Made by a program: the position numbers and the translations under genes. From the IMG/VR virus record IMGVR_UViG_3300029448_005133, positions 1-43,623 of that record: a DNA stretch of 43,623 nucleotides; one strand, 5' to 3'. Source of the DNA: a virus. Below the pieces are notes generated by a model. It did not search any database. It saw nothing but the letters and a program-made list of their open reading frames with translations, and had not been told where the DNA came from. Position 1 is the stretch's first letter; every line of letters starts with the position of its first letter. Below are positions 28,341 to 35,536 of this stretch, one piece after another.

Positions 28341-28622
28341 ATGTCAAAGATAAGTGAAACAACAGAAGTAACTTTAGATTTAAAAACCATTATTATGGTT
28401 GTAGGGGGAGTAGTGTCTTTAGTTGCAATGTATTTTGCCTTACAAAAAGAAATCGAGGTGGCTAAAGACTTGCCAGAGCCTACAATTACGAGGGCTGAAT
28501 ACGATTTAAAAGACCAACTTATTCGTGAGACTATCATGAATACTAAGCAAAAAGTGGATGAAAATAGCGCAAAGCTAGATCGCATAGAAAGTAAATTATT
28601 TGAAATAATCGAAAGACAATGA
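28341..28622 (+). CDS. Single-TM protein with C-terminal coiled coil (lysis candidate)
   Basis: 93 residues. A hydrophobic segment TIIMVVGGVVSLVAMYFAL (about 17-35) is followed by a charged helix with heptad spacing (TKQKVDENSAKLDRIESKLF). The N-in, TM, periplasmic coiled-coil layout fits an i-spanin or a holin-like lysis protein. It lies just upstream of a secreted small protein and an M15 peptidase and overlaps the next gene by 4 bases (ATGA). The lysis role is inferred from neighbours. Confidence 0.68.
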   Translation: MSKISETTEVTLDLKTIIMVVGGVVSLVAMYFALQKEIEVAKDLPEPTITRAEYDLKDQLIRETIMNTKQKVDENSAKLDRIESKLFEIIERQ

Positions 28623-28933
28623 GAAATATATTCACAACACTCTTGATGATAGTTTTTTTTGGGGCAATGGCTCAAAACATAACTGTCGTGCAAATAAACG
28701 CGAAATGGAACAAGGTTAATGATTTTAAAATAACAGACTTGCCGTCAAGTGTCAAGTACAAGTTTGCTTATTTAGAGGACCAGAACAATGAAGTGAAATC
28801 ACAAATCCAAGCAGTACCTGTTATTATTGTTTATAAAGGTAGCGAACCTGTAAAACAATGGAATGCAAACCTAAGTTTCAAACTGGAAGTAAAAGAAGAA
28901 GATATTATAGCAGCAGTAAGAGCGGTACAATAA
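28619..28933 (+). CDS. Secreted thioredoxin-fold-like protein lacking the CxxC
   Basis: 104 residues. A clear signal peptide (MRNIFTTLLMIVFFGAMA, cleavage near residue 18) suggests export across the inner membrane. The mature part resembles thioredoxin: a beta strand ITVVQINAKWNKVNDF where the active-site WCxxC would be, then QAVPVIIVYKG with the cis-Pro-type VP before the last strand, and KLEVKEEDIIAAVRA as the final helix. Both active-site cysteines are absent, so a redox function is unlikely. A structural or binding role in the periplasm, perhaps in lysis, is inferred from position. Confidence 0.65.
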   Translation: MRNIFTTLLMIVFFGAMAQNITVVQINAKWNKVNDFKITDLPSSVKYKFAYLEDQNNEVKSQIQAVPVIIVYKGSEPVKQWNANLSFKLEVKEEDIIAAVRAVQ

Positions 28934-28936
28934 TAA

Positions 28937-29299
28937 ATGAGTTTTAAATATTTTAAGTATTCAGAGTTTGATTCCCCAGATGAGCCTGGAAGCGGAGAGA
29001 AACACATGTGTGAAACTCTTATTCAGATGCTTGATGAGGTGAGGAAAGAATACGGAAAGCCTATGAGAATAAATTCTGGCTATCGTTCTAAGTCTCAGAA
29101 CCTTATGGCTGGTGGTAAAAAAGACTCGAGTCATCTGCGTGGTTACGCGGCAGATATATCTGTAAAAAGTAGCGTGGACCGTTTTCACTTGATTTGGTTG
29201 TTTATGAAATACAACTTTCGAAGAGTAGGGGTAGCGAAAACATTTATACATGTAGATGTAGACCCAGATAAGCCGCAAGAAGTAATGTGGTTATATTAA
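28937..29299 (+). CDS. Endolysin: peptidase M15A (D-Ala-D-Ala/L-Ala-D-Glu type)
   Basis: 120 residues. Zinc-site motifs of the M15 family are visible: SSHLRGYAADI with His66 and Asp73 (the SxHxxGxAxD motif), and HVD with His105. RINSGYRS (about 44-51) is the usual preceding strand. Such proteins cut peptide cross-links in peptidoglycan and serve as phage endolysins. There is no signal peptide, so release depends on a holin. It is the last gene on this strand and ends at a bidirectional terminator. Bacterial carboxypeptidases of this family are usually longer; phage versions are this short. Confidence 0.88.
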   Translation: MSFKYFKYSEFDSPDEPGSGEKHMCETLIQMLDEVRKEYGKPMRINSGYRSKSQNLMAGGKKDSSHLRGYAADISVKSSVDRFHLIWLFMKYNFRRVGVAKTFIHVDVDPDKPQEVMWLY

Positions 29300-29338
29300 A
29301 AAAAAAGGGAGCCGATTAAAGCTCCCCTTTCTGTTTTT
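29298..29338. terminator. Bidirectional intrinsic terminator between convergent genes
   Basis: GGGAGC (29307-29312) pairs with GCTCCC (29321-29326) over an 8-base loop. A-rich sequence on the left gives a T-run for the minus-strand transcript, and TTTCTGTTTTT on the right serves the plus-strand transcript. It stops both the endolysin end and the receptor gene end. Confidence 0.9.
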
Positions 29339-31847
29339 AGAATCGATACTTCAAAGAAGCATTCCAAGTACGTCCGAATCCGAACCATACTGAGTTCCTA
29401 ACATCGACACCATTCCAAGTGCTAGAGCCTTGTGTAGCGTGAATATTAGAGTTAGACTCTGCAATGTAAGTAGTATCAAATACATTGTTCATATTAGCAC
29501 GTAAGCTAAAGCTTGGGCTAAAATAAACAGTAGCACCCAAATCAAACAATCCATAAGAAGGGAGTTTTAATGCACCCTTGTTGTCTGGATTTGTAAAATC
29601 TGAATCTGTAATAGAATAATCAGCATACAGACCATCTACAAAGCGGTAGTTTAAATCTACCTTAGCAAAGTCACCAATTCTGTGGTCGGCTTGAAGACTC
29701 ATAGTAAACTGAGCAGCATCCCCTACCTTAGCACCTTTAGTATAAAGAGTACCATTACCGATAAGGTTTTGATTTTCATCAAATAACTCTGCCTCAAAGT
29801 TTTTAGTGTACCTCCAATCCCCAATAGATAACATCCCTTTGAAAGACGTCTTAGGAGAATAAAAATACCTACCTTCAAACTCAATACCGTTGTGTACAAC
29901 GTCAATGTCATTGAACTGAGCGAAGCCGTCAACACCTTGTTGGTTTGTTAAAGAACGAGAAATAAATCGGTTACCCCATACTGTAGAGTAAGCATTAATA
30001 TCTGCCTTAAACTTTCCGTTGTTGAATCCATAACCAACCTCTAACGAATTTACTTTTTCGTTTTGTAAGTTAGGATTGATTGCGTTTGCGTAGTTAGGGA
30101 AAACTGCATCAAACAATGGCTGACGTGAAATAAGTCCTCCATTAACAAAAACATTACTTACATCACTCAAGTTGTAGTTAAAACCACCTTTTAAGTAACC
30201 ACCAGCAATGTTCTTCTTGTCAGAGATAGGATTGGCTGGTTGGTCAAAATAATCCTCACGCTGATAGCTTTGAGTTGATGTACCGACTTGTAACACCGCA
30301 GTGAACTTCTCGTCAGTATACTCAGCCATACCGTTTAATCCTCTCCAACCTACGTTTCCGATGTTGTAGTAGTCAATCTTTGGACCTCTAATCCCTGTGT
30401 TTTTGAATGGACTAGCCTCAACAGTAGTGTTAATAATCTGTCCTGCGCTGTTTCTGTTTCCTCCAGAATAATACCCATCAAGTCCTAAAAGGTCATTTAA
30501 GACTCGGTAGTGATACCCTTTATAATTCCGTAAGTCAACTCCAATAGAATACTTCATTTTGCCAGAAGTAATATCTAAAGAGGAAATAGCACCAACCCAG
30601 TCATGTGAGTTCATTGATGCACGACGCACAAGAACAGCTCGATTTACATTACCGCCTGGATTTGTGTTACCACCGATTTTTTGTCCAGCAAAGCCACTAA
30701 TAGGACCATCATATCCCTCAGTTGTAATTCTGTTAACTCCAACAATGTGGTCAAAGTTAATGAATCCATTTGAATCCCTTGCTGCAACGCCTTTACCCTG
30801 TGCAAGTTGCTCGGTTAAGTCTTGTCTGAAAGGGTAAACGTTGATGTTGTCGTTTCGGAAGTAATTACCTCTAGGTCCTGTTCCACCACCACGACCAGCG
30901 GAACCGTAAAGAGATGTGTTCAACTGAACATTGTCAGAAATGTCCCAATCCCAGTTAAACGTAGCAAGTGGTTTGTTGTAGAAGTTACGTCTGATATTGT
31001 ACTCCTCTCCATTCAAGTAACCACCATTGGTGTTCCATCTTCTGTCGATACCCTCTGAACCAAAATTCTGATAGTCTCGAATAGACACCCAAGCTGAACG
31101 TTGGTGGTGCCATTGACCCGCACCAAGTACAGATAGGTTGAATGCGTGAGCGGAGTCATCGGGGTCGTAACCAAGAGCAAAAAAGTAGGTTAATCCTTCT
31201 CCACCTGTAAAATTAACGTAACCATCTCCTTGCCACTTAGATAAAAGGACAGATGCTGCAAACCCCTTGTCGCTCTTCCCTGTGTTGTAGACAGCCGCAG
31301 TCTTTCTATAACCATCATTACCTACCATTTGAGTGATAGAACCACCCTCATTAAGTTGAGCGGTTTTAGTAAAGATAGAGACTGTACCACCGACAGACGG
31401 AACTGCAAGTCTTGACGCTCCAAGACCTCTCTGGATTTGAATACCAGAAGCAACATCTGTTAATCCTTGCCAATTTGACCAATACACCCATCCGTTTTCC
31501 ATATCATTGACAGGTTGCCCATTGATAAGGAATGATGTGTTACGTTGGTCAAATCCACGTAAAGAGATACGAGAATCTCCATAACCACCCCCTTGTTTAG
31601 TAGCGTAAACGCCAGGAGTGTTGTTCATGATTTCTGGAAACTCTTGGTTTCCAACTTTCAATGATATGTCACTAGCAGAAATAGATGACACCGCAACAGG
31701 TGTAACACGCTCTCTAGCAACATCAATAACTCGAGATGTGACAACCACCTCGTCTAATTGCTGAGTCAAGATAGAATCTTGCTCTGCTTCTTGGGCATGT
31801 AGCCCGATTGTTAGTACCGCTAACAAAAAAGTAAATAGTTTTCTCAT
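29337..31847 (-). CDS. TonB-dependent outer-membrane receptor (phage-encoded)
   Basis: 836 residues, a complete receptor. Signal peptide MRKLFTFLLAVLTIGLHA (cleavage near 18); TonB box LDEVVVTS at 31-38; plug domain with NTPGVYAT, SLRGFDQRNTSFLINGQPVN and GLGASRLAVPSVGGTVSIFT (to about residue 160); then a barrel-like series of alternating strands with many Gly/aromatic residues; C-terminus ASLKYRF ending in Phe, the outer-membrane assembly signal. It lacks the N-terminal carboxypeptidase-regulatory-like domain common in Bacteroidota receptors, and no SusD-like partner is adjacent. The substrate is unknown. In bacteria these import iron-chelates, B12 or glycans using TonB-ExbBD, none of which is encoded here. 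It sits downstream of thioredoxin with its own promoter-like box. Host-derived cargo (a moron) is inferred. Confidence 0.95.
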   Translation of the reverse strand: MRKLFTFLLAVLTIGLHAQEAEQDSILTQQLDEVVVTSRVIDVARERVTPVAVSSISASDISLKVGNQEFPEIMNNTPGVYATKQGGGYGDSRISLRGFDQRNTSFLINGQPVNDMENGWVYWSNWQGLTDVASGIQIQRGLGASRLAVPSVGGTVSIFTKTAQLNEGGSITQMVGNDGYRKTAAVYNTGKSDKGFAASVLLSKWQGDGYVNFTGGEGLTYFFALGYDPDDSAHAFNLSVLGAGQWHHQRSAWVSIRDYQNFGSEGIDRRWNTNGGYLNGEEYNIRRNFYNKPLATFNWDWDISDNVQLNTSLYGSAGRGGGTGPRGNYFRNDNINVYPFRQDLTEQLAQGKGVAARDSNGFINFDHIVGVNRITTEGYDGPISGFAGQKIGGNTNPGGNVNRAVLVRRASMNSHDWVGAISSLDITSGKMKYSIGVDLRNYKGYHYRVLNDLLGLDGYYSGGNRNSAGQIINTTVEASPFKNTGIRGPKIDYYNIGNVGWRGLNGMAEYTDEKFTAVLQVGTSTQSYQREDYFDQPANPISDKKNIAGGYLKGGFNYNLSDVSNVFVNGGLISRQPLFDAVFPNYANAINPNLQNEKVNSLEVGYGFNNGKFKADINAYSTVWGNRFISRSLTNQQGVDGFAQFNDIDVVHNGIEFEGRYFYSPKTSFKGMLSIGDWRYTKNFEAELFDENQNLIGNGTLYTKGAKVGDAAQFTMSLQADHRIGDFAKVDLNYRFVDGLYADYSITDSDFTNPDNKGALKLPSYGLFDLGATVYFSPSFSLRANMNNVFDTTYIAESNSNIHATQGSSTWNGVDVRNSVWFGFGRTWNASLKYRF

Positions 31848-31910: not shown

Positions 31911-32174
31911 CTACAAATATTTGTCAATAATTTTAGTGTAGCGTTCTTTAGCTCCAACGCCACGTATTCTTCCGATCTCCTCTCCGTCCTTTACAAAAAC
32001 AACGGTGGGTACTGTTTTTACTGAATACGTCATCGCCTCGTCGTATTCCTTCTCGACATCTAACTCCTGTAGAGACACTGCATCGGGATAATCCGACACA
32101 GTATCTTCTAGTACAGGTTGTAAATTCTGACAAGGTTTACAATTAGGTAGATAAAACTTTTTTAGTTCAATCAT
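31911..32174 (-). CDS. Thioredoxin/glutaredoxin-like protein
   Basis: 87 residues, cytosolic. Active site CKPC at Cys12-Cys15 after the first strand (FYLPNCKPC), cis-Pro56 in KTVPTVVF, and a final GxxxKERYTKII helix, giving the whole short thioredoxin fold. It begins 9 bases after the ribonucleotide reductase large subunit, so it probably re-reduces the C-terminal cysteine pair of that enzyme. This is the common phage arrangement, as with the T4 glutaredoxin. Short size and the CKPC motif fall between thioredoxin and glutaredoxin. Confidence 0.9.
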   Translation of the reverse strand: MIELKKFYLPNCKPCQNLQPVLEDTVSDYPDAVSLQELDVEKEYDEAMTYSVKTVPTVVFVKDGEEIGRIRGVGAKERYTKIIDKYL

Positions 32175-32183
32175 AAATAATTT

Positions 32184-33947
32184 TTAACCATCACAAGAGA
32201 CACAATCTGGGTCCATTGCTTTTGCTGCAATATCTCCTCTAAGGACAGACTCTGTTCTCATGTAATATAAAGTTTTGATTCCCTTCTTCCAAGCATCTAA
32301 ATGCACTTGGTTTATCCACTTAGGAGAAGCCTCTGAGGGGAAGGCTAAGTTAAGAGACACCGACTGGTCTATATACTGTTGACGTATACCCGCTTGATTC
32401 ACAAGCTCTAGTTGGTTAATCTCTTTGAAAGTCTTGAATACATCCTTAACTTTATCGCAAGGAGCATCGCCTATATCATCTGCTCTGTTAAGAAACCCAT
32501 CAACAAAACACCATTTATCAAGTTCATCGATACCTTGAATAGACCCCTTGTCAGCGAGTATAGCCGACCAAGTATCTTCATTGTTAATACCAATAGCATC
32601 AAGTACTTTTTCAAGCTCTGCGTTCTTTCTAATAAACGTGCCCTTTGCAGATTGCTCTGTAAAAAGGTTAGCGGCCCAAGGCTCAATACCAGGGGAAACG
32701 TTACCAGAAAGCTTTGAGTTTGAGACAGTTGGGGCTATTGCTCTGAGGTGTGTATGTCGTAAACCCGTATCTCTGCACCAGAGGGGTTCTCCATATACGT
32801 CTGCAAGGTCTCTCGAAGCTCTCTCGGACTCAATCTTGATTTGACTAAAAATTCTGCGTGTTTGGAATTGAGCTCGTAATCCTTCAAATGGAATACCATT
32901 CTGTTGAAGGTACGTATGCCATCCGAGCACTCCAAGGCCCAAAGCACGTCCTTTTTCCGCGGAACGAACACTATTTTCAAATCCGCGTAGTCCCTTTGCC
33001 TTTTGGATAAATTCTTCCAAAACGCCATCCAAAAACCAAATGGAGTGGTAAATAAGGTCAGTATTTTTCCATTCATGATATTTTGCTAAATTTACAGACG
33101 AAAGACAGCATACAAAACTATGGGACTCATCGGTATGCAGAGTAATCTCTGAACATATATTAGTCATGTGAACTTTAAGTCCATTTGCCTTGTAAGCTGT
33201 AGGATTCGCTTTGTTTGTATTCCCTTTAAATAATATGTAAGGCTCTCCAGTAGCCTTACGTTTTTGGAGTAGTTTACTCCATCTCTGTCTTGCTGTCTCA
33301 TCTCCTTCAACGAGTCTTCGCATAAACTTATCACCGACGACAGCGCACTGATGAAGATTGAGAGATTGTCTGTTGACATCACCTTTTGGCTCCCTAATTT
33401 CCAACCAATGCTCGAAGTCATCGTGTTCAATGTTGAGATTGACAGATGCAGCTCCTCGTCTGACTGCTCCTTGATTAGTCGCGAGAATTGTTGAGTCGTA
33501 GATTTTGCAAAACGGCACCACGCCATCAGATGTTCCATTTCCTGTAATTTTAGAGCCAGCGGGGCGAATCATATTGATACCAATTCCAACTCCCCCACCG
33601 TGTTTAGCTAGTAGCATCATCTCTAAATTCTTAGAGCCAATCTCATGTACACTATCCCCAACATCGATACCAAAACAACTGATTGGTAACCCTTTGTCTG
33701 TACCTGTGTTCGATAATACTGGAGAGGCTAAGTTAAGCCAGCCGTTCCAAATGTACTCAAAGAACGTATCTGCTAACTCTGGCTTGTAAAGTCTTTTTGA
33801 TACCGTAGAAGCAACCCTCATATAAGCATCTTTTGGAGACTCCCAAGGCTGAAGATAACCACCAATGATAGTCTTCTTGTAAACCTCTGTGTCTCCCCAT
33901 TGTGGGTAATCAACTCCGACTACCCATTTGTCGTTCCATTCTGTCAT
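32184..33947 (-). CDS. nrdA: Class I ribonucleotide reductase, large (alpha) subunit
   Basis: 587 residues, shorter than E. coli NrdA (about 760). It makes dNDPs from NDPs in complex with NrdB. Key residues are visible: Cys91 in PISCFG (first active-site cysteine), Asn263-Cys265-Glu267 in NICSEIT (radical cysteine and acid/base pair), Cys280/Cys281 in CCLSS (disulfide partner), Tyr561-Tyr562 in LYYMRT (radical transfer), and C-terminal Cys582 and Cys585 in DCVSC for thioredoxin. The N-terminal ATP-cone that senses dATP is absent, so overall-activity shut-off should be missing. Its ATG overlaps, as ATGA, the stop of the frameshifted thyX extension. Confidence 0.96.
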   Translation of the reverse strand: MTEWNDKWVVGVDYPQWGDTEVYKKTIIGGYLQPWESPKDAYMRVASTVSKRLYKPELADTFFEYIWNGWLNLASPVLSNTGTDKGLPISCFGIDVGDSVHEIGSKNLEMMLLAKHGGGVGIGINMIRPAGSKITGNGTSDGVVPFCKIYDSTILATNQGAVRRGAASVNLNIEHDDFEHWLEIREPKGDVNRQSLNLHQCAVVGDKFMRRLVEGDETARQRWSKLLQKRKATGEPYILFKGNTNKANPTAYKANGLKVHMTNICSEITLHTDESHSFVCCLSSVNLAKYHEWKNTDLIYHSIWFLDGVLEEFIQKAKGLRGFENSVRSAEKGRALGLGVLGWHTYLQQNGIPFEGLRAQFQTRRIFSQIKIESERASRDLADVYGEPLWCRDTGLRHTHLRAIAPTVSNSKLSGNVSPGIEPWAANLFTEQSAKGTFIRKNAELEKVLDAIGINNEDTWSAILADKGSIQGIDELDKWCFVDGFLNRADDIGDAPCDKVKDVFKTFKEINQLELVNQAGIRQQYIDQSVSLNLAFPSEASPKWINQVHLDAWKKGIKTLYYMRTESVLRGDIAAKAMDPDCVSCDG

Positions 33948-34574
33948 AATCCTTTTTGTTTTCTAAACCAAGCAAGCAACGTGTGCTCGAATGGATTCCC
34001 TTCAATATTCTGCACCAACTCTAACATCTGCTTTGCAATATCCCTTATCTCAAGTTGAGCGTGTTCACTATCTCTAAAAGTTATGGAAACTCCTCATATT
34101 GAAAGATACATCTGCTTGTATCTGAGAGTTATAAGTCTTGAAAAACCTTGCGGCTTCTTTTGCTCTTTTTCTCCCAAGCTCCTCTTGTATGTCAGCCAAA
34201 CATTCGTGGTATAGCGAGTCTGAAGTCTGTGTATGCAAAAACAACTTGCGCTTCCACTTGTCGGGAAAGTCAACAGGCACATAGACCTTATCTTCTTTAA
34301 GTTCTTTGTATCTAGCCGACTCTGCATTTAGAGACGATATGCGGTGCTTTAATAAGTGTATGTGACTAGCTATATCACAATCCACCAGAAAGTGCACGAT
34401 ACCTTTTTCAAATGGCGTCTCATGACCATCTCTCCATAGCGTATTGATAAGCTTAGGTATACGTGCTCTTTTTTCGTCGGTTAGTTCTCTCGACGTAGAT
34501 GTCCAAGCACTACAAGCAATGACCTCGTCACTGCCGTAGTGTCCTAATAATTTAACTGAATTTGCTCTTACCAT
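33944..34574 (-). CDS. thyX: FAD-dependent thymidylate synthase ThyX, split by a +1 frameshift
   Basis: ThyX converts dUMP to dTMP using FAD. The first frame (34574-34074, 166 residues) has HETPFEKG at 51-58 and the ThyX motif KHRISSLNAESARY at 76-89, then stops at TAG (34076-34074) after SFNMRSFHNF. In the +1 frame the sequence continues with RDSEHAQLEIRDIAKQMLEL and 23 more residues to a TGA at 33946-33944 that overlaps the nrdA ATG. This continuation is the conserved ThyX C-terminal part (LRxxxHAQxEIR) holding a dUMP/FAD-contacting Arg. Together it would be about 209 residues. The join is TTT-TAG with a preceding or overlapping T run, an ideal +1 slip site. Mutation or an assembly error is the alternative. 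Confidence 0.88.
34073..34079 (-). other. Candidate +1 frameshift site in thyX
   Basis: On the minus strand the bases are TTTTAGA: Phe codon TTT, then TAG. Moving one base forward, the same Phe tRNA can re-pair with TTT and the next codon is AGA (Arg), entering the conserved ThyX C-terminal frame. A stop codon in the A site next to a slippery P-site codon is the layout of the bacterial release factor 2 frameshift (CUU-UGA). No clear SD-like stimulator is seen upstream. Confidence 0.5.
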
Positions 34575-35536
34575 ATATCTTCGAAATCTTCTTTCTCATT
34601 TGCTTTTGAGTAATCTGTTGGGCGAATAGCGAAAAAATCTGTATGAGTTACACCACCAGTTAAGTGGTAGAACCATTCAAGATTAGAAGCGCTAGTGCTG
34701 TCATAAGCAAACTGATTATTATGGTCCGCATAACCAAGTTCTGCAATCTTCTCATTGATACGTTTTCTAATAAAATTCTTTAAATCTTCTGCTTTAAGGT
34801 TCTCAATGTCACCTTGTTCAAACATCTTATCGATGTATCGCTCTTCTAAGTCAAGCATAATAGATGCCGCATCCAAAACATCTTGCTTCACCTGGTCTTT
34901 TAATTCAGGCATTTCTTCACACATGTGTCTAAACAACTGACAACCCATCTTAGAATGTAAAGACTCATCTCTAACACTCCATTTCATCTGTTGTCCGATG
35001 CCTTTGAGTAAGTTACGGAGCTGAAACGAATAAAGCACTGCAAAAGCAGAATACAACGATACTCCCTCAGCAAAGGCTGAAAACAAAGCCAACGACCTTG
35101 CAATACCTACTGGGTCATTGCCCTCGTAGCTTACAAGATTGTCGAATCTATCAGCAGTAGCTGGTTCGTGTAAGAAAGCATCAAAGTCCTCCAACCCAAG
35201 AGTTTCATTAAGATAGCTATAAGCTACCGCATGAATAGTCTCTTGAGAGCCGAACATCATTGCCATCTGTTGTATTTCATGTTTTGGAAACCAAGACACA
35301 ACTTTTTGCGTCCAGTAATCAGAAACTGCACACTCAGTTTGAGCAAATCCAAGTAAGATGTTACCCACTAAATTCTTTTCAGAGTCTGTCAGCTTTTCAT
35401 TCCAATCTTTAACATCTCCAGACATTGGGATTTCTGTGTGAAGCCAAAATGCCTGTGCTTGTTTTAACCATCCTTCTGTATAATAATCTGGATACTCGAA
35501 TGGTTTGTAAGGTATCCTTTTGTCAAATAATCCCAT
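34568..35536 (-). CDS. nrdB: Class I ribonucleotide reductase, small (beta) subunit
   Basis: 322 residues, normal length, helical. Metal ligands by comparison with E. coli NrdB: Glu68 (position of Asp84), Glu99 and His102 in QETIHAVAY (Glu115/His118), Glu157 in FAEG (Glu204), and Glu191 and His194 in RDESLH (Glu238/His241). Tyr106 lies at the radical tyrosine place (Tyr122). Glu instead of Asp as first ligand is a feature of some class I subclasses such as Ic, but those replace the Tyr with Phe, so the subclass is not settled. The acidic C-terminal tail EKEDFEDIW would bind NrdA. It is the first gene of the nrdB-thyX-nrdA-trx run and overlaps thyX by 7 bases. Confidence 0.96.
   Translation of the reverse strand: MGLFDKRIPYKPFEYPDYYTEGWLKQAQAFWLHTEIPMSGDVKDWNEKLTDSEKNLVGNILLGFAQTECAVSDYWTQKVVSWFPKHEIQQMAMMFGSQETIHAVAYSYLNETLGLEDFDAFLHEPATADRFDNLVSYEGNDPVGIARSLALFSAFAEGVSLYSAFAVLYSFQLRNLLKGIGQQMKWSVRDESLHSKMGCQLFRHMCEEMPELKDQVKQDVLDAASIMLDLEERYIDKMFEQGDIENLKAEDLKNFIRKRINEKIAELGYADHNNQFAYDSTSASNLEWFYHLTGGVTHTDFFAIRPTDYSKANEKEDFEDIW

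Follow-up and report, generated by a model that had tools for sequence, protein, structure and literature searches.

Carriage of a complete TonB-dependent receptor by several kinds of marine Bacteroidota viruses, often beside a nuclease gene, suggests scavenging of outside nucleic acid for viral DNA

Several kinds of marine Bacteroidota viruses carry a gene for a TonB-dependent receptor (TBDR), often with a nuclease gene adjoining, which suggests that the infected cell scavenges outside nucleic acid for viral DNA. The copy studied here lies in a stretch of 43,623 nucleotides (the window) from a 49.5-kb IMG/VR record. That record encodes a phage terminase, a portal, and capsid-type proteins, and the terminase has relatives in Flavobacterium elemo phages, Cellulophaga phages, and other flavophages. 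Judged by its sequence, the receptor belongs to one single-copy Bacteroidota subfamily, a core transporter of Flavobacteria.

The receptor gene occupies positions 29337 to 31847 on the minus strand and encodes an intact protein of 836 residues, with an ATG start and zero internal stops. By reading the translation, we recognized a predicted signal peptide, MRKLFTFLLAVLTIGLHAQ, at residues 1 to 19 (31791 to 31847, minus strand) and a putative TonB box, LDEVVVTS, at residues 31 to 38 (31734 to 31757, minus strand). The plug domain spans residues 47 to 154 (31386 to 31709, minus strand; Pfam PF07715, E 4.8e-12, 46.8 bits against a cut-off of 23.9), and the beta-barrel, with its strands visible in the structural model, extends to the C-terminal Phe836 (29340 to 31385, minus strand; PF00593, E 1.2e-6, 29.1 bits against a cut-off of 27). 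AlphaFold2 returned a plug-in-barrel (mean pLDDT 86, pTM 0.85), with low confidence at the N-terminus, in the region of the signal peptide. The first-pass annotation had described a complete receptor with these same elements, and the ORF, Pfam, and AlphaFold2 all bore it out. It had also proposed a structural comparison with known receptors; the model matched solved TBDRs nearly end to end, and no particular ligand was favored, since BtuB (Z 35.9, rmsd 2.4, 535 aligned), FoxA and FhuA close behind it, and others tied. Neither the NCBIfam BtuB equivalog TIGR01779 (49.7 bits versus 599.7) nor the siderophore receptor model TIGR01783 (62.4 versus 223.5) was reached, and a search with Rfam for a riboswitch that might hint at the ligand found none in the window or in four host loci. 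Among the window neighbors and the recurrent viral neighbor families, identified by Pfam in part and otherwise by eye, there was no SusD-like gene.

In the window, the receptor is the final gene of a minus-strand run for nucleotide metabolism. The run comprises the small subunit of ribonucleotide reductase, NrdB (34568 to 35536; PF00268, E 1e-57), a ThyX-type thymidylate synthase named by eye from its sequence (34074 to 34574), the class I large subunit NrdA, of the NrdE-prime type (32184 to 33947; PF02867, TIGR02510, PRK09102), and, immediately upstream of the receptor, thioredoxin (31911 to 32174; PF00085, E 8.1e-16). The ThyX gene near the TBDR of another viral locus, L066, is Thy1 (PF02511). 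On the other side, convergent with the receptor, is an M15 peptidase/endolysin gene (28937 to 29299, plus strand; PF08291, phrog_894), separated from it by a terminator-like hairpin (29301 to 29332, both strands; a consensus match only). Pfam and phrog matches thus confirmed the earlier description of phage genes on both flanks. A small secreted-looking protein is encoded beside the endolysin (28619 to 28933); it is conserved in the related contigs L003 and L004 and matched no family. The window further encodes GroEL (521 residues) and a GroES-like protein (960 to 2769), and groEL with chaperonin 10 is also found in the related podovirus record MW202828. No nuclease adjoins the receptor in this phage; an SNase-family nuclease (PF00565; 39552 to 40025, minus strand) lies 8 kb away and has no evident signal peptide. 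In L053, a homologue of this SNase immediately precedes the TBDR.

The integrity of the two junctions had been named beforehand as a test. Both edges are kept in the viral contigs L003 and L004, which come from other assemblies, and one junction is spanned by L083, a contig of a metagenome-assembled genome (MAG); receptor identity across the three ranged from 94 to 100%, the highest value being that of L083. A chimeric join, which these contigs make very unlikely, was accordingly ruled out as an explanation. The MAG in question, Crocinitomicaceae MED692, holds L083 (100%) together with a separate TBDR copy (L108, 60%), so that a phage contig was evidently binned into a bacterial MAG. In comparison with L004, the receptor gene had a dN/dS of 0.08, which indicates purifying selection, and a dS of 0.39, close to those of the endolysin (0.44), NrdA (0.47), and thioredoxin (0.40) genes; it is therefore an established, selected resident of the phage genome. 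As a host-derived gene kept under selection in a phage, it is a candidate auxiliary metabolic gene. None of 30 terminase-selected relatives, many of them fragments, carried it, and the gene is thus accessory in this phage group.

When viral contigs were scanned for the receptor, 409 stretches proved to encode relatives. The best 80 of these 409 (60 to 100% identity), grouped at 95% identity, represent about 55 viral lineages, a set whose short contigs are not all of proven viral origin. Six of the 34 large records encode the T4-type capsid protein Gp23, so that the gene is found in T4-like phages in addition to podovirus-like ones; a Terminase_6C search for phage hallmarks gave no match. Named phages yielded only remote TBDR matches (about 32 to 34% identity at best) and no match to the S1/P1 nuclease described below. 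The first-pass view that a phage bringing its own receptor is not an established theme has to be revised, given the occurrence of the subfamily in about 55 viral lineages and the earlier accounts of phage TBDR domains in PMC8857322 and PMC10504331. The search that it had called for, for host homologues and further phage copies, turned up both. Relatives are also present in bacterial genomes (60 to 75% identity to the closer host copies), with exactly one copy at E<=1e-60 in each of the 15 host genomes checked, and pgi adjoins the gene in 31 host loci. Viral and host copies were interleaved on trees and a single clade of all viral TBDRs was rejected (AU p 3e-4); the interleaving argues for repeated transfer between hosts and phages. 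A supposed swap of the TBDR allele in L046 was dropped, as the quick tree search was unreliable there and a careful test gave p 0.19.

The best pointer to function came from the genomic setting: an S1/P1 nuclease gene is found near the viral receptor in 13 of the approximately 55 lineages, nearly always at position +1 or +2, and in the T4-like groups it is a nuclease of this family, predicted to be secreted, that comes after the TBDR. The linkage was also evident when viral contigs were scanned for the nuclease alone. Of the 39 loci found, 2 were cut at a contig end and 3 were remote homologues, leaving 34 evaluable, and in 30 of these a TBDR was upstream, within 0.5 kb in 27; three of the four loci lacking it have short upstream sequence. 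All nine expected metal ligands, at the positions known from P1 nuclease, are invariant in the phage proteins, in which a signal peptide was recognized both by inspection and with a simple rule. The phages with S1/P1 may trace their nuclease to a single acquisition, in which case the lineages are not fully independent. Endonuclease_NS occurred near the TBDR in 8 of the approximately 55 lineages, and it was less than 1 kb away in 7 of the 14 records having it, versus 0.44 expected under uniform placement, a figure inflated by close relatives among the records. As 77 of 80 loci found through Endonuclease_NS itself had no TBDR nearby, we dropped this nuclease as a TBDR-specific partner.

The remaining recurrent neighbors of the viral TBDRs, nearly all on the same strand, include many genes of nucleotide metabolism. 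Within five genes of the TBDR, NrdA and NrdB were each found in 11 of the approximately 55 lineages, and nearby were ThyX (6 lineages), GTP cyclohydrolase (6), and a phosphoribosyltransferase (5). A P-loop kinase of the AAA_28 family (PF13521; L045:13442-13987 and relatives) comes after the TBDR in 24 lineages. An IMPDH/GMPR-type gene (L027:8604-9674 and relatives) lies directly upstream of it in 11 related lineages; since such genes are also common in phages without the receptor (a TBDR was present at 16 of 76 newly fetched loci), IMPDH was likewise dropped as a specific partner. Five lineages, L023, L005, and L053 among them, have small ferredoxin-like genes, named by eye, at a distance of two to four genes upstream.

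The pairing with S1/P1 has a counterpart in one host. In "Ca. Arcticimaribacter" (L089 and L090), the only S1/P1 gene of the host comes after the TBDR, and in L090 the order is TBDR, S1/P1, Na+ nucleoside transporter, LOG-family protein, and Endonuclease_NS. On a tree, the phage S1/P1 genes grouped with those of Arcticimaribacter (support 97/98), while their TBDR partners did not form a single group (rejected by AU), which indicates that the two genes stay paired even where the TBDR has been exchanged. Thirteen of the 15 host genomes checked have their own S1/P1 nuclease above the cut-off; in most hosts, the TBDR is beside pgi and S1/P1 is elsewhere. Weak hints come from genes close to the TBDR of some hosts, for a secreted Exo_endo_phos_3 protein (9 loci) and for thymidine kinase (8 loci).

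The nucleases next to the TBDR in other phages, together with the nuclease and nucleoside-transporter genes in one host, favor nucleic-acid-derived substrates. From the gene neighborhood, we give about an even chance to the joint reading that the receptor is a captured host outer-membrane transporter kept by the phage for nutrient acquisition and that it imports nucleic-acid fragments which feed phage dNTP synthesis. In such a scheme, the receptor would be expressed together with the nucleotide-metabolism genes and exported through the signal-peptide and outer-membrane insertion pathways of the host; drawing energy from the TonB-ExbBD complex of the host, it would let oligonucleotides or nucleotides pass the outer membrane. 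Nucleic acid would be cut outside the cell or in the periplasm by secreted nucleases; in other lineages the phage itself encodes candidates for this step (S1/P1, Endonuclease_NS), and for the phage of the window the host would probably provide them. Host transporters and salvage enzymes would then supply the RNR/ThyX pathway of the phage with nucleotides for making DNA. Somewhat short of an even chance is the broader proposal that marine Bacteroidota phages encode a nucleic-acid scavenging pathway, consisting of a TonB-driven importer and a secreted S1/P1 nuclease, by which the infected cell collects nucleic acid, perhaps from already-lysed neighbors, for phage DNA synthesis. Two points weigh against import of nucleic acid by the receptor of the window: its phage has no nuclease gene beside it, and genes for RNR, ThyX, and kinases belong to the usual early repertoire of phages. 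The phage TBDR plausibly changes the nutrient uptake of the infected cell, a possibility listed in the first-pass annotation and one that a complete, conserved, phage-resident receptor makes credible; for iron, the example it gave, the adjacent class I RNR and the ferredoxin-like genes of some lineages are indirect indications.

Phosphate, and not building blocks, could be the main gain, if the receptor and nucleases drew on phosphodiesters, nucleic acid included, to meet the needs of a P-rich phage genome. Phosphate depletion in Flavobacterium co-induces TBDTs, SusCD-like systems, and extracellular nucleases (PMC8115612), and the secreted Exo_endo_phos_3 protein of the nine host loci would fit as well. 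However, the host cluster L090 has a nucleoside transporter in place of phosphate genes, and the neighbors of the phage TBDR are dNTP and salvage genes, and we hold this explanation to be unlikely. Iron chelates are the cargo of most characterized TBDRs, and acquisition of iron or another metal, for instance for the adjacent di-iron class I RNR, would accord with the NrdA and NrdB genes close by in 11 lineages, with the ferredoxin-like neighbors, which are compatible with such a role, and with weak NCBIfam matches of the receptor to siderophore and heme receptor models. Those matches are nevertheless far under the curated cut-offs (62 to 63 versus 224 to 324 bits), the neighbor lists, read by eye, showed no gene for ferritin, Feo, or a siderophore, and the linkage to S1/P1 is left unexplained, so that a metal as the cargo appears distinctly improbable.

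Another explanation is that the phage adds or replaces a receptor for phages or bacteriocins, or competes for TonB, and thereby alters who else infects the cell. TBDRs have long been known as receptors of phages, FhuA for T5 being an example, and TBDR domains of Bacteroidota viruses are read as receptors in PMC8857322. An added functional receptor, however, is expected to raise, not lower, co-infection, and neither a plug and barrel conserved in their entirety nor a pairing with a nuclease is predicted; we consider this a shade less probable still than a role in metal uptake. The accessory distribution among the terminase-selected relatives would suit a passenger gene that serves no selected function in the phage, but the low dN/dS, divergence in step with the neighboring genes, and recurrence across the viral lineages make this by far the least credible explanation.

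Among the closest known systems is the core, pgi-linked TBDR of Flavobacteria, a family for which we found no published name. It has the same plug, barrel, and C-terminus as the phage protein; the host gene is beside pgi, whereas that of the phage stands in an early-gene run, and an N-terminal carboxypeptidase-regulatory-like extension, present in many relatives, is absent from the phage protein by eye. BtuB, FhuA, FecA, FoxA, and PqqU of E. coli or Pseudomonas share the fold, but with about 13 to 18% identity and no curated family cut-off reached. The cyanophage-type pstS is another phage nutrient gene, thought to raise host uptake in infection; it encodes a periplasmic binding protein, whereas the phage TBDR is predicted to be a TonB-driven outer-membrane transporter. 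The Flavobacterium systems induced by phosphate depletion (PMC8115612) likewise tie Bacteroidota TonB-dependent import to nucleases and organic phosphorus, but they are bacterial and partly SusD dependent, and no SusD gene was recognized beside the phage TBDR. TBDR domains in phages are already known, from gut Bacteroidetes viruses (PMC8857322) and pelagiphage Skadi (PMC10504331), where the available portions of the reports present them as entry-receptor or immunogenic domains, without nuclease linkage. We found no description of this subfamily in phages, or of its pairing with a nuclease, in the literature covered, most subscription papers being outside that coverage.

Phage nutrient genes are well known; what we did not find described is a complete, conserved, active transporter of the outer membrane in about 55 viral lineages, many of them nuclease paired. 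If import of nucleic acid is indeed its role, viral lysis, dissolved DNA and RNA, and viral replication would be directly linked, and an uncharacterized single-copy core transporter of Flavobacteria and Bacteroidota would be given a function that can be tested.
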